A stretch of 51,675 nucleotides of DNA from Gammaproteobacteria bacterium (GTDB taxonomy: Bacteria > Pseudomonadota > Gammaproteobacteria > SZUA-152), in NCBI GenBank assembly GCA_021647505.1, contig JAKIUN010000021.1, positions 1 to 51,675 on the forward strand, in the 5' to 3' direction. How positions within the stretch are numbered: the first letter of the stretch is position 1; the number at the start of each line of letters is the position of its first letter. This document shows positions 47,090 through 51,675 of this stretch, piece by piece. Position numbers and translations under genes: made by a program. The notes beneath the pieces are model-generated. The model saw nothing but the letters and a program-made list of their open reading frames with translations, was not told the DNA's origin and did no database searches.

Positions 47090-47260
47090 ACCGAAGCCAT
47101 CGGCTCCCTGGCCGAACGTTATCTGAAGATCGGCAAACGCCTGCACCTGTGCCACCTCAGCCCGGAATGCACCCAGCAGCTGAAAAAAGCCGGTGACCTG
47201 GCGGAAGTCAACGTGATCGAAGACCCAAAATACTTTGTGGCCGACGGCAAGCTGGCCTGG
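47090..47260 (+). pseudogene. C-terminal STAS scar of a SulP-family anion transporter
   Basis: The frame reads EAIGSLAERYLKIGKRLHLCH, LSPECTQQLKKAGDLAEV and NVIEDPKYFVADGKLAW. This is the end of the STAS domain of SulP permeases (pattern ERYxKLGKxxHLxHLSPDC...EDPKY). A TGA at 47081-47083 precedes it and no membrane domain is present. It continues into unrelated DNA at about 47261, where the AT-rich island starts. It marks a deletion or insertion junction. Confidence 0.78.
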
Positions 47261-47299
47261 AGCAGAGCAAATCCGTATATGATATCTAAGGAACGGCCT

Positions 47300-48586
47300 T
47301 CATATTTTTTCATCACGCCAAGCCACAGTAACAATGAAAAAATCCTGCTCAATAGCAAAAATAAATTGCCAATCCAGCTTGGAACAGACCCGCTGCACCA
47401 GTTGCAACCCCAATCCAAACCCCGGCGAGTCAGTATATTCTTCGCTGCTGGCCCCTGTCTGTACAGGGTTGGCAATACGGAGACCATTCGTCGATACCTC
47501 CAGTTCTATCACACCATCGACACCGTACATAAAAGCATTTCTGACCAGGTTTGCAATCACAATGGAAAATAGATCGTTTTCGATATAAAGGCTGTCAACA
47601 TCGACATGCAAACAAAGATCAACCTGCCGATCATTAACTAAATAACGATGATCCTTGATAATTTGCTCACATAGAGCACGAACATCAACATAGCTTTTGT
47701 CAACAGGCCGTTCAGATTCACGCGCCAGCCACAACAATGCCGCAGATAGTCGTCTCATATTAGCGCTGGCCCTCAGTGCGCGCTGCACTGCTGGCTGACT
47801 GGTTTCATGATTTTGCAGATTCAAGGTATCCAGACTGGCCTGAATAATCGCCAAAGGTGTGCGCAATTCATGGCTGGCGTGCTTCAAGAACTGCTGCTCA
47901 CGCTGATTAAATGCCCGTATTCTACCGACACCTTCGTGTAGTTGTGCAGCAAGCTGATTCAATTCTTCAATAGGAAAATTGGTGCTCAGAGCTTGATCCG
48001 GATTCCGCCCCAGGCTGGATGCCCATTGGCTGAGCAGTGCCAATGGCTCAGTGGTACGACGAATCAGCCATCTCACCATAAAGAACAGCGATATAAAAAT
48101 AATTAACGTCAGCCAGAACGCCTGATTCAGTGCTGTTTTTACAAAAGCAAGGGATACCGCCTCGATCTCTGCTGCATGATGACGGCTAAGTAAAAATAGT
48201 TCGCCGTAATCGTCATCAACATGATGCAACAGATAGAGATAATCGACACTTCCATCAACATTACTAAGACTCACCTCCACGACTTTCCCGCTGGAGACAG
48301 GAGGACTACCAAAATAGTTGCGTAATGACTCGGGAATATCCTCCCACTGCCGATAGGCGCTAAATGTTTCACTGCGGGGTAAAGGTAAATCCGGATGTTC
48401 AGTTGCCTGCCGTATCAATGATTGCGCATCAAGCTGTATCAGGCTATTGGTATTTAATACAGCCGCGCGCCAGGAAAAAACCAGCGATATTAACAAGCAA
48501 ACAAAAAACAGACCCGTGCCGAGCCATAACAATTGCCAGCGTACCTGTTCGGCCAGCGTCCTGGTGCGGCGACAATTCTCAGGCAT
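47300..48586 (-). CDS. Sensor histidine kinase
   Basis: 428 residues from ATG 48586, overlapping the response-regulator gene by 8 bases. Two membrane helices (about 20-42 and 155-175) enclose a periplasmic sensor of about 110 residues. A HAMP-like linker follows, then HisKA with His239 in FLKHASHELRTPLAII, and an ATPase domain with N-box NLVRNAFMYG and G-box GFGLGLQLV. It belongs to the AT-rich operon with the exporter, so it probably senses an envelope or peptide signal. The stop at 47300 is about 40 bases from the SulP scar. Confidence 0.92.
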   Translation of the reverse strand: MPENCRRTRTLAEQVRWQLLWLGTGLFFVCLLISLVFSWRAAVLNTNSLIQLDAQSLIRQATEHPDLPLPRSETFSAYRQWEDIPESLRNYFGSPPVSSGKVVEVSLSNVDGSVDYLYLLHHVDDDYGELFLLSRHHAAEIEAVSLAFVKTALNQAFWLTLIIFISLFFMVRWLIRRTTEPLALLSQWASSLGRNPDQALSTNFPIEELNQLAAQLHEGVGRIRAFNQREQQFLKHASHELRTPLAIIQASLDTLNLQNHETSQPAVQRALRASANMRRLSAALLWLARESERPVDKSYVDVRALCEQIIKDHRYLVNDRQVDLCLHVDVDSLYIENDLFSIVIANLVRNAFMYGVDGVIELEVSTNGLRIANPVQTGASSEEYTDSPGFGLGLQLVQRVCSKLDWQFIFAIEQDFFIVTVAWRDEKI

Positions 48587-49250
48587 CTTTTTTTCTGAGG
48601 CACAAACCCACGCCGACAAGTGTGTGAATCAGGGGATAAGCAAAGGGCTTGTCCACGGCCTTGCGCAGTTGGTGTAATTGGACATTAAAGTTTCCGGCAT
48701 CCACATCATCATCAGGCCAGGCATGATCTTCCAGTTCAGCCCTTGACACCACTTCGGGACTACGTTGCGCCAGCAATTCAAGCATTCTCCAACCGATCGG
48801 CGTCAGCTTGACCTCATGCCCCTCGCGCGACACCCTGAGCTCCTTGAAATACAAGGTCAGCGTATCTATCGACAATTTATCTGTTTGTGGCTTATCACGC
48901 CGGTGCAAGGCCTGTAAACGGGCCCACAGCAGGGGCATAGGGCAAGGTTTGACAACATAATCATCAATACCGGCCTGAAATCCCGTGAGTTGCTCTGCGT
49001 TGGTATCACAAGCGGTTAACATTAAAATTGGCGTAAAATTCCCCTGTCTGCGCAGTTTTTCACACACCTCAAAGCCCCGCATTCTCGGCAACATCAAATC
49101 CAAAACAATCACATCAAACCGACACTCCTGAGCCAGTATCAAGCCAGACTCACCATGGTATGCAAAGTCACATTCAACGCCCTGCAAGACCAGGTAATCA
49201 CTCATGGCGGCCGCCAGCTCAGCATCGTCTTCGACAATTAAAACTCTCAT
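48579..49250 (-). CDS. OmpR-family response regulator
   Basis: 223 residues from ATG 49250 (MRVLIVEDDAELA). Its ATGA overlaps the exporter stop. The receiver has phospho-acceptor Asp51 in VIVLDLMLPRM and the switch residues in LMLTACD and DDYVVKPC. The winged helix is LTPIGWRMLELLAQ, SRAELEDHAW and NFNVQLHQLRKAVD. It is read between the exporter and its kinase, so it is most likely to regulate this same operon. Confidence 0.93.
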   Translation of the reverse strand: MRVLIVEDDAELAAAMSDYLVLQGVECDFAYHGESGLILAQECRFDVIVLDLMLPRMRGFEVCEKLRRQGNFTPILMLTACDTNAEQLTGFQAGIDDYVVKPCPMPLLWARLQALHRRDKPQTDKLSIDTLTLYFKELRVSREGHEVKLTPIGWRMLELLAQRSPEVVSRAELEDHAWPDDDVDAGNFNVQLHQLRKAVDKPFAYPLIHTLVGVGLCLRKKDA

Positions 49251-50923
49251 TCTTTTATCTTTTTGGTGGACAAGCATTCATTCTCAGTTAATTTTTGATG
49301 ATGATCAAGATCTACCAACTTGCCCTGCTCAATTTTTAGCACCTTATCAGCACAATCAAAATAACGATCATCGTGGGAAACAACAATAACGGTCTTTCCG
49401 CGTTTTTTCAGCGCTGGTAAAATCTCCCAATAAAAAATATCCTTGAACAAGGGATCCTGATCCGCAGCCCACTCATCAAGCAAAACAACCGACTTATTCT
49501 CGCAGTAGGTCTGCAGCAAAGCCAAGCGCTTGCGCTGGCCATGACTGAAATCCAGCCGGGATAACACTCCTTTTTTTGATGTAACTACAGCAGAAAGCTT
49601 CAGTTTTTCTAAAAGATCATGAATGATATGATCATCACAGAGGTTTCCTTTAGCGTCAATAATTTCCTCAAAAAGACAAAAGTCCGGTGTGATGATGGAA
49701 AAGTTATTACGAAAGGCTTCTACCTCGTCCGATGCAATCATTTTGTCATTCAGGTAAATATGACCACTGTCCAGCGGATACAAGCCACACAAAATTTTCA
49801 GCAAGGTGGACTTACCACTGCCATTGCCACCGATAATTAAAGTTATCTCTCCCGGGTTAAATTGAGTGGAAATTGGCCCAATATGAAACATCTCTATTTT
49901 ATCGTCTATTTCTAAGGTATAGGAATATTCGATATTTTTAAATTCCAGCTTCACCCCAGAAGAGTCAAGGTCTTTTTCTGTTTTTAGCGGTTTTAACTGA
50001 CCCCACCCAGAAACCTCAGCTAAGCGTAAACTGTCAATTTTATTAAATGCAACCTTGGCATCTACCAATTCATCCGCGCTATTAATAATAACTTCAATGG
50101 GTTCTAACAAAAACAGCAGGGTAATTACATAACCAGCAACGACCTCCATAGACAATAACCAATAGTTGCCAACAACAAAAATAATAATACCTAACATGGC
50201 AAATATTAGCAGTTGAGCCCACTGTTCAATCACAGCAAGAACGTTGAATATGCGGTGATTTTTATGGCGCATGTCCGTTGCGGTAGAAAATATTTTACGA
50301 GTAAAAAAGTATTTTCTAAAGCGATTAAGCGTCAACTCTTTTATACCTAAAACCACATGTTGATAATGACTCATCATTGCATCAGTCGATTCGCGAACGG
50401 CAACGCGATCTTTTTTGGTATACATCAGTAAAAAAAATATTGTGAAAAACATAATGACTAAAAACGCCAGTACAATACCTAGCAATTGCCATGATAAATA
50501 AGCCATGTAAGCAATACCAAAAATCACTATAACAATATTAATAATAAGTGCAGGCACCACATGGAAAAATTTTTCTGCGGTATTCAAATCTTCTGTTAAT
50601 GTTGCAATTACTTTAGGCAAACCAATTTCTTCCAGTTGAGATAATGGTGTTTCTATGACTCGGCGAATCATTTTGACTTGAATGTCATAACTGACATTAA
50701 CGGCCATTCTGACAACCAGCAGGTCATTAGTTAAGCCGACTGTAAACAAGATAAAAATAGCGCTAAAAAAATATTCAGCGCCATATTTCATATTATCCAG
50801 CTGATTACCTATCGCATCACTGATAATGGCAATAACACTCATACTCGCCATGCCCAGAAGAATGCTCATGGGAACGGTGATTAACAGATACCATTTGTAT
50901 TTTAAATACAATTCTTTATACAT
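49247..50923 (-). CDS. Cyclic-peptide-type ABC exporter (YojI/SyrD/PvdE-like)
   Basis: 558 residues, a fused membrane-ATPase half-transporter. Six predicted helices in residues 1-290. Walker A is GGNGSGKS (365-372), the signature is SRLDFSHGQRKRLALL (FSHGQ at 459-463, variant of LSGGQ), Walker B is VVLLDEWAADQDP (about 479-491) and the H-loop is VVSHDDRYFD. The DEWAADQDP string is typical of YojI, SyrD and PvdE, which export microcin J25, lipopeptides or pyoverdine precursors. GGAAAGGCGGG precedes ATG 50923. AT-rich, unlike the neighbouring core genes. Confidence 0.92.
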   Translation of the reverse strand: MYKELYLKYKWYLLITVPMSILLGMASMSVIAIISDAIGNQLDNMKYGAEYFFSAIFILFTVGLTNDLLVVRMAVNVSYDIQVKMIRRVIETPLSQLEEIGLPKVIATLTEDLNTAEKFFHVVPALIINIVIVIFGIAYMAYLSWQLLGIVLAFLVIMFFTIFFLLMYTKKDRVAVRESTDAMMSHYQHVVLGIKELTLNRFRKYFFTRKIFSTATDMRHKNHRIFNVLAVIEQWAQLLIFAMLGIIIFVVGNYWLLSMEVVAGYVITLLFLLEPIEVIINSADELVDAKVAFNKIDSLRLAEVSGWGQLKPLKTEKDLDSSGVKLEFKNIEYSYTLEIDDKIEMFHIGPISTQFNPGEITLIIGGNGSGKSTLLKILCGLYPLDSGHIYLNDKMIASDEVEAFRNNFSIITPDFCLFEEIIDAKGNLCDDHIIHDLLEKLKLSAVVTSKKGVLSRLDFSHGQRKRLALLQTYCENKSVVLLDEWAADQDPLFKDIFYWEILPALKKRGKTVIVVSHDDRYFDCADKVLKIEQGKLVDLDHHQKLTENECLSTKKIKE

Positions 50924-50924
50924 A

Positions 50925-51128
50925 CTAACCCGCCTTTCCTGATTTTTTTGTTGGTATAAAATCTATTAACCATAAAAGCCACAAAAGCATCCAGCCGGAA
51001 TACATTTCCCCCAGAAAAAAATGATAGGCATCAGACAGCCCAAAAATAGATAAGAATCCAAGATACCAGTGCTTGCTTAACTTATATTCTATGTTTTTAT
51101 GCATGGTTTTTTCTTTAAGTGGTTTCAT
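50925..51128 (-). CDS. Small two-helix membrane protein (TM2-like)
   Basis: 67 residues from ATG 51128, which overlaps the hydrolase stop as ATGA; an internal ATG at 51104 gives 59. Two hydrophobic segments (WYLGFLSIFGL and MLLWLLWLIDFI) flank YHFFLGEMYSGW, reminiscent of TM2 domains (FxLG...G...D). It ends 1 base before the exporter ATG. It may assist the exporter or give immunity. It is not itself an obvious precursor: no leader/core pattern and no Cys. Function unknown. Confidence 0.6.
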   Translation of the reverse strand: MKPLKEKTMHKNIEYKLSKHWYLGFLSIFGLSDAYHFFLGEMYSGWMLLWLLWLIDFIPTKKSGKAG

Positions 51129-51589
51129 TCATTCACTGTTTTTTCTTTGACCCAACGGGTTATAAAATCAAGAAAACCATCGGCAAAAGCATATTCTCCC
51201 AGAAGTTCAAATTTAATAATAAAGCCGATTCCTGGAACAGTCTCTTTAAAGTATTTTTTCTTCAAGAGACCGTGCTGCGCCTCCGGAAATATTTTTATGG
51301 TTAAATTCTTGTTGCCTGATTTCTCAAAAATCTCTTTATATATGCTAGCGCTTTCAGCGGCATCGACATTCAAGTCATGAGCACCAAATATAGCCAATGT
51401 TGGGGAGCTGATTTCTTTTAGACTCTCGCGTGCGTCAGAGCGCCAGTTAAGTTTGACAAATTGAAAATGTTGCGGCGTCTTGATTTCTGCTTTATTTTTT
51501 TGAGCTGTAGCAGACCGATAATACTGGCGGTACTCCTCATAAGTAGAAGGGTTCTTCGAAGAATTGTGTGAAGGCCTATGGGGCCATTT
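51125..51589 (-). CDS. Alpha/beta hydrolase, C-terminal part
   Basis: The open frame spans 51589 to 51125 (about 154 codons) below a TGA at 51590-51592. It includes YEEYRQYYRS, LKEISSPTLAIFGAHDLNVD and KIFPEAQHGLLKKKYF. GAHDLNVD and AQHGLL are the acid and histidine regions of an alpha/beta hydrolase. The nucleophile elbow (GxSxG) would be upstream but is cut off by the stop. The first plain ATG is at 51397, inside the domain. It is therefore a truncated gene, or has a frameshift near 51590. It is the first gene of the operon and overlaps the small membrane gene. Confidence 0.65.
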   Translation of the reverse strand, partial: KWPHRPSHNSSKNPSTYEEYRQYYRSATAQKNKAEIKTPQHFQFVKLNWRSDARESLKEISSPTLAIFGAHDLNVDAAESASIYKEIFEKSGNKNLTIKIFPEAQHGLLKKKYFKETVPGIGFIIKFELLGEYAFADGFLDFITRWVKEKTVNE

Positions 51590-51675
51590 TCAGGCCACCA
51601 CAATAAAACAATATGCTATTTCTGAATCCATCGAATGAACGATAACCCCTGGCATTCGACTTGACGGTCTGAATC

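Follow-up and report, generated by a model that had tools for sequence, protein, structure and literature searches.

Five coupled genes at a contig end as the probable distal half of an insertion-interrupted, sensor-linked efflux operon in a gammaproteobacterium

The right end of the window, meaning the whole stretch of 51,675 nucleotides analysed here (contig JAKIUN010000021.1 of a Gammaproteobacteria bacterium, SZUA-152), carries five genes on the minus strand. With gene starts set by homologues these are, counted back from the last gene of the operon, a sensor histidine kinase (47300..48586; HisKA 37.1 bits, 76–85% identical to homologues in the same position), an OmpR-type response regulator (48579..49250; Response_reg and Trans_reg_C, homologues 88–94% identical), an ABC exporter of 558 aa from the SyrD/PvdE/YojI-like family TIGR01194 (49247..50923; homologues 74–78% identical), a small hydrophobic, probably membrane protein of 67 aa or shorter (50925..51128) and the 3' part of an alpha/beta hydrolase lipoprotein gene with the catalytic Asp and His side (51125..51549; Peptidase_S9 28.3 bits). 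Kinase and regulator overlap by 8 bases and regulator and exporter by 4, exporter and small protein are 1 base apart, and the small protein overlaps the hydrolase stop by 4 bases. GC content is 0.35–0.50 in the five genes compared with 0.57 in the window. A sequence-only reading had described this as a set of coupled, AT-rich genes beside a SulP scar, and as an observation this is confirmed as a whole. All compared genes are under purifying selection (dN/dS about 0.04–0.2) and their order recurs in other species, so the arrangement is not due to chance. The small protein gave no family match in profile searches; a similar ORF occupies the equivalent place in L042 (WFXF01000034.1, a Gammaproteobacteria MAG), with 76% identity across 50 aa and a dN/dS of 0.06. 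We considered the 67-aa protein as a precursor peptide and set this aside, as it is hydrophobic and rich in tryptophan, shows conservation over its entire length and is not encoded next to the exporter of a related locus (L041). Scans for promoters and terminators gave hits in numbers close to those expected from shuffled sequence.

On its other side the operon is bordered by the 3' end of a SulP gene on the plus strand (47092..47259), a real scar as its 168 bp match the end of the intact SulP gene at 88% identity in G001, a genome of the same genus, in which the matching regulator and kinase lie about 2.3 kb from SulP. Comparing 47092–47300 with the G001 locus (L037, G001:C1016), the window is without the ~2.3 kb of small ORFs and a flavodoxin-like reductase gene found there between SulP and the kinase; with most of SulP lost in the window, this difference reflects either a deletion here or an insertion in G001. 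The kinase is absent from G002–G006, which belong to the same genus, and the GC content of the locus in other carriers is near 0.45, so the operon fits those genomes and not this one. Together with the GC contrast in the window this makes acquisition likely, as had already been proposed for the region, repeated loss being a possible alternative.

The exporter contains both motifs named earlier as the hallmark of the YojI/SyrD/PvdE type, DEWAADQDP and FSHGQ (E. coli YojI has DEWAADQDP and LSKGQ), and profiling it against TIGR01194, a check the earlier reading had asked for, identified it as a member over residues 5–538 (348.6 bits, cut-off 286.2). It falls outside the YojI equivalog PRK10522 (392.2 bits, cut-off 604) and far below the MsbA model (122.4 bits, cut-off 602), and E. 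coli YojI is 30% identical to it over nearly the full length. A sample of 369 genomes of the class contains exporters of this clade only in the window's genome and in that of L042 (G097). The next relatives in this sample are about 28–34% identical and stand without the other operon genes; neither a sensor pair nor a hydrolase or DUF6134-like gene was found near such relatives in 14 sampled genomes and in G016 and G055. In G270, read by eye, a 32% identical relative lies a few kb before a set of outer-membrane factor (OMF), adaptor (MFP) and RND genes in an apparent siderophore region, near a gene resembling a phosphopantetheinyl transferase; from this reading, the pairing of exporter and RND pump may recur in a siderophore context. 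Between the window and L042 (47300–50923) the synonymous divergence (ps) is about 0.4 in regulator and kinase and about 0.74 in the exporter, which suggests different histories of these genes or recombination near the 3' end of the exporter.

The hydrolase had been taken for a remnant reaching to 51589, and here the earlier account has to be corrected. Its coding part ends at 51549, and the last 126 bases of the window (51550..51675, minus strand) are the end of an ISL3-like multi-copy insertion sequence, coinciding with the contig end. The genome contains 23 matches to this end, and at least ten of these sit at the very start of a contig; most copies are 99–100% identical. It is a recent expansion of this insertion sequence that breaks the assembly. 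The element resembles ISL3 in its 8-bp target duplication and its transposase tail; its terminal repeats are imperfect, and the short tail of 32 aa matches DDE_Tnp_ISL3 of Pfam weakly (14.7 bits, under the cut-off of 23). The front half of the hydrolase gene terminates contig C7 of the same genome (G000:C7:19337-19966) and is 70% identical to the gene of G008, a genome of the same family, and the 3' part in the window is 68–70% identical to the intact genes of G008 and L042. The duplication CTTCTACT (51542..51549, minus strand) is repeated at the C7 breakpoint and adjoins element ends at both breakpoints, and homologues cross the joint in frame. The supposed remnant is therefore one half of a single gene cut by the insertion, and the contig break is the element itself. 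Judged from the duplication, the reading frame and the homologues, C7 and the window contig (C53) are probably adjacent through the element. Near-identical element copies and intact frames on either side point to a recent insertion.

The 11.6 kb of C7 that were read (L057, G000:C7:8500-20092) bear out the earlier suspicion that the operon may begin beyond the right edge. Following MgtE and an OmpA-like gene, a DUF2860 barrel (L057:3295-4278), an OMF (L057:4282-5730; OEP match), an RND adaptor (L057:5720-6862; RND_mfp 143.1 bits, cut-off 94.9), an AcrB-family RND pump (L057:6865-9996; ACR_tran 534.8 bits, cut-off 28), a DUF6134-like protein (L057:9993-10835) and the front part of the hydrolase with its lipobox (L057:10838 onward) are encoded in the same direction, with gaps of 2–3 bases or overlaps of 4–11 bases. 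OMF, adaptor and AcrB-family permease encoded together constitute an RND tripartite efflux system. With this upstream half on C7, the five genes of the window become the 3' half of an operon with ten genes, about 12 kb long without the element, in the order DUF2860 barrel, OMF, adaptor, RND pump, DUF6134-like protein, hydrolase lipoprotein, small membrane protein, TIGR01194 exporter, regulator and kinase. The insertion, upstream of the small protein, exporter, regulator and kinase, probably severs this distal half from the operon promoter, unless the element supplies a promoter, and probably uncouples the pump from exporter and sensor in this genome. Annotation can be misled when a multi-copy insertion sequence places a contig break in the middle of an operon and keeps one half out of sight, as it did here.

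The rightward extension with a search for small ORFs and RiPP or NRPS genes, which had also been recommended, revealed no precursor peptide, NRPS or maturation gene within the 11.6 kb of C7, the true upstream region. No linked precursor, maturation or synthetase gene, as expected of a RiPP or NRPS cluster, was found in the window and the C7, L041, L042 and G008 stretches either. This and the patchy distribution argue against an operon that secretes a home-made cyclic peptide, lipopeptide or siderophore, with the biosynthesis genes elsewhere in the genome and the sensor pair tuning the export. As TIGR01194 exporters are typically linked to such products, and as the G270 relative, seen by eye, is followed by OMF-MFP-RND genes in its apparent siderophore region, we regard secretion of this kind as unlikely but as an explanation deserving some weight.

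Related records are mostly MAG contigs, some of them ending inside the operon. The order exporter, regulator and kinase was found in five other genomes (L040, L041, L042, G001 and G008), so that the exporter–regulator linkage, which the earlier reading had made a condition of its interpretation, is conserved in homologous loci; in G001 only the final 22 codons of the exporter precede regulator and kinase at a contig end, and in G008 the exporter copy beside the sensor genes is decayed. This linkage is thus common to several species, with one case of decay. The full five-gene order of hydrolase, small protein, exporter, regulator and kinase occurs in one other genome, that of L042. L041, a Lysobacterales MAG, encodes OMF, adaptor, RND pump, DUF6134 protein, a fatty-acid hydroxylase, exporter, regulator and kinase, with no small protein or hydrolase beside the exporter. 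One contig of G008 carries genes for DUF2860, OMF, adaptor, RND pump, DUF6134, hydrolase, a protein of 123 aa, an AmpH-like protein, an OlsE-like hydroxylase and the exporter; on a second one the decayed exporter tail directly precedes regulator and kinase, the intact pump–exporter operon and the sensor genes thus being on separate contigs. On the latter (L036:8517-8760, G008:C90) the exporter tail has frameshifts and the regulator directly behind it is apparently intact; the kinase frame match has one TAG upstream of its likely start. In L162 (G153:C184) an OMF-MFP-RND set is immediately preceded by a fatty-acid-hydroxylase gene 34% identical to that of G008, a hint that such enzymes and RND pumps are linked repeatedly. 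No pump or exporter of this type was found within 1.5 kb of DUF6134 (PF19630) in 27 sampled genomes, and DUF6134 is therefore no marker of the system.

The enzymes of these loci could also be read as envelope enzymes, the operon then serving envelope maintenance by exporting or remodelling lipids or membrane-damaging breakdown products, with a kinase that senses envelope stress. The G008 cluster, with its genes for the hydrolase lipoprotein, an AmpH-like and a fatty-acid-hydroxylase-like protein, would fit this function, as would the hydroxylase in L041 and the profile matches of the kinase, which are general envelope and metal sensors. We nevertheless consider it quite improbable, because such enzymes differ from copy to copy and the exporter belongs to TIGR01194 and scores far under the MsbA cut-off.

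The kinase itself leads to the RND pump. Among the closest relatives of the pump outside the clade, those at ranks 1, 3 and 4 (G223, G167 and G366) carry coupled genes for OMF, adaptor, RND pump, regulator and kinase, without exporter or hydrolase. In all three genomes the best genome-wide match of the window kinase is the RND-coupled kinase (E 1e-40 to 1e-42), the next-best match in any of them having an E of 5e-27, and in a tree built from 41 kinases the three RND-coupled kinases fall together with the window clade in a single group (support 96/85), which places the window kinase among kinases whose genes directly follow those of related RND pumps. The kinase HATPase_c domain is below the Pfam cut-off, a weak or undetected match that is shared by the window clade and the RND-coupled relatives, and in the window kinase, its homologues and these relatives N-P replaces the usual aspartate motif of G1, as read by eye from the sequences. 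An AlphaFold2 model of the kinase from four sequences had a mean pLDDT of 60.8 and was too poor for a fold search. The nearest outside relatives of the kinase are thus coupled to the RND pumps most closely related to this one, so the sensor pair probably arrived along with the pump rather than with the peptide exporter. The simplest history would start from a sensor-regulated RND pump, with the genes for DUF6134, hydrolase and exporter later added between it and the sensor genes. Of the earlier interpretation, TIGR01194 membership, linkage, acquisition and the extension beyond the right edge therefore stand, whereas its assignment of the sensor pair to the peptide exporter is not supported, since the upstream half contains an RND tripartite pump and the nearest outside kinases stand behind such pumps without an exporter, and neither is the hydrolase remnant, the gene having been cut by the insertion sequence.

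The same comparison raises the question whether an unrelated exporter and hydrolase were simply inserted into the gene set of an RND pump and its own sensor pair, the parts being only co-transcribed. RND–regulator–kinase sets without the insert exist, the genes between RND pump and exporter vary, and the higher window–L042 identity in the sensor genes than in the exporter may reflect different histories. However, L041 and G008 keep the DUF6134-like gene and the exporter together with the pump, the coupling of exporter, regulator and kinase is maintained elsewhere, and purifying selection acts on every part, so that we give separate modules very little credence.

Taking as observed the gene content, order and coupling on both contigs, their conservation in related species, the insertion and the kinship of the kinase to RND-coupled kinases, we favour, with moderate confidence, a probably acquired operon of ten genes, of which the five genes form the promoter-distal half and which would serve as a sensor-controlled two-stage efflux system for amphipathic or peptide-like compounds, without linked biosynthesis genes. 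Pump and exporter modules are also joined in L041 and G008. In such an operon the kinase would detect such a compound, or the damage that this does to the envelope, and the response regulator would activate the operon. The ABC exporter would then move the compound from the cytoplasm or inner membrane into the periplasm and the RND pump would carry it across the outer membrane, and the hydrolase, in G008 together with the AmpH-like and fatty-acid-hydroxylase-like proteins, may modify the compound or the envelope.

Literature searches turned up no operon of this kind and no paper naming DUF6134. The closest known layouts each share a part of it. AdeRS-AdeABC and SmeRySy-SmeYZ, compared by gene layout, also have a sensor pair encoded beside the RND pump that it presumably controls, whereas here the DUF6134-like, hydrolase, small protein and ABC exporter genes separate the two. 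PvdE is the inner-membrane exporter of the pyoverdine system. This system combines an exporter of this subfamily with a tripartite pump, PvdRT-OpmQ (PMC8277102), which is an ABC pump of the MacAB type and not RND, and which is part of siderophore biosynthesis. E. coli YojI, which effluxes microcin J25, shares the exporter subfamily, the 30% identity and the DEWAADQDP motif, but the exporter described here is below the YojI equivalog cut-off and E. coli yojI adjoins neither an RND pump nor a sensor pair; a review considers it unclear whether YojI works within a true tripartite system (PMC8277102). The published precedent for two stages is SyrD and the PseABC RND pump of Pseudomonas, which both act on syringomycin and combine, for one product of the syringomycin/syringopeptin type, a cyclic-peptide-type inner-membrane ABC exporter with an RND tripartite pump (PMC9679282). 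Theirs lie in an NRPS cluster with LuxR-type regulators (PMC9679282), whereas here exporter, pump and two-component pair share one operon with no linked biosynthesis gene. It is a tentative thought, and one we hold with low confidence, that this may represent an undescribed class of sensor-controlled two-stage export in which the cyclic-peptide-type ABC exporter hands its substrate to the RND pump of the same operon, aided by dedicated DUF6134-like and hydrolase factors, and which would have spread horizontally as a defence against the peptides or lipopeptides of neighbours. An operon encoding the exporter, the RND tripartite pump and the sensor pair together makes a hand-over from exporter to pump directly testable, and it bears on how the substrates of SyrD- and YojI-type exporters are carried past the outer membrane.
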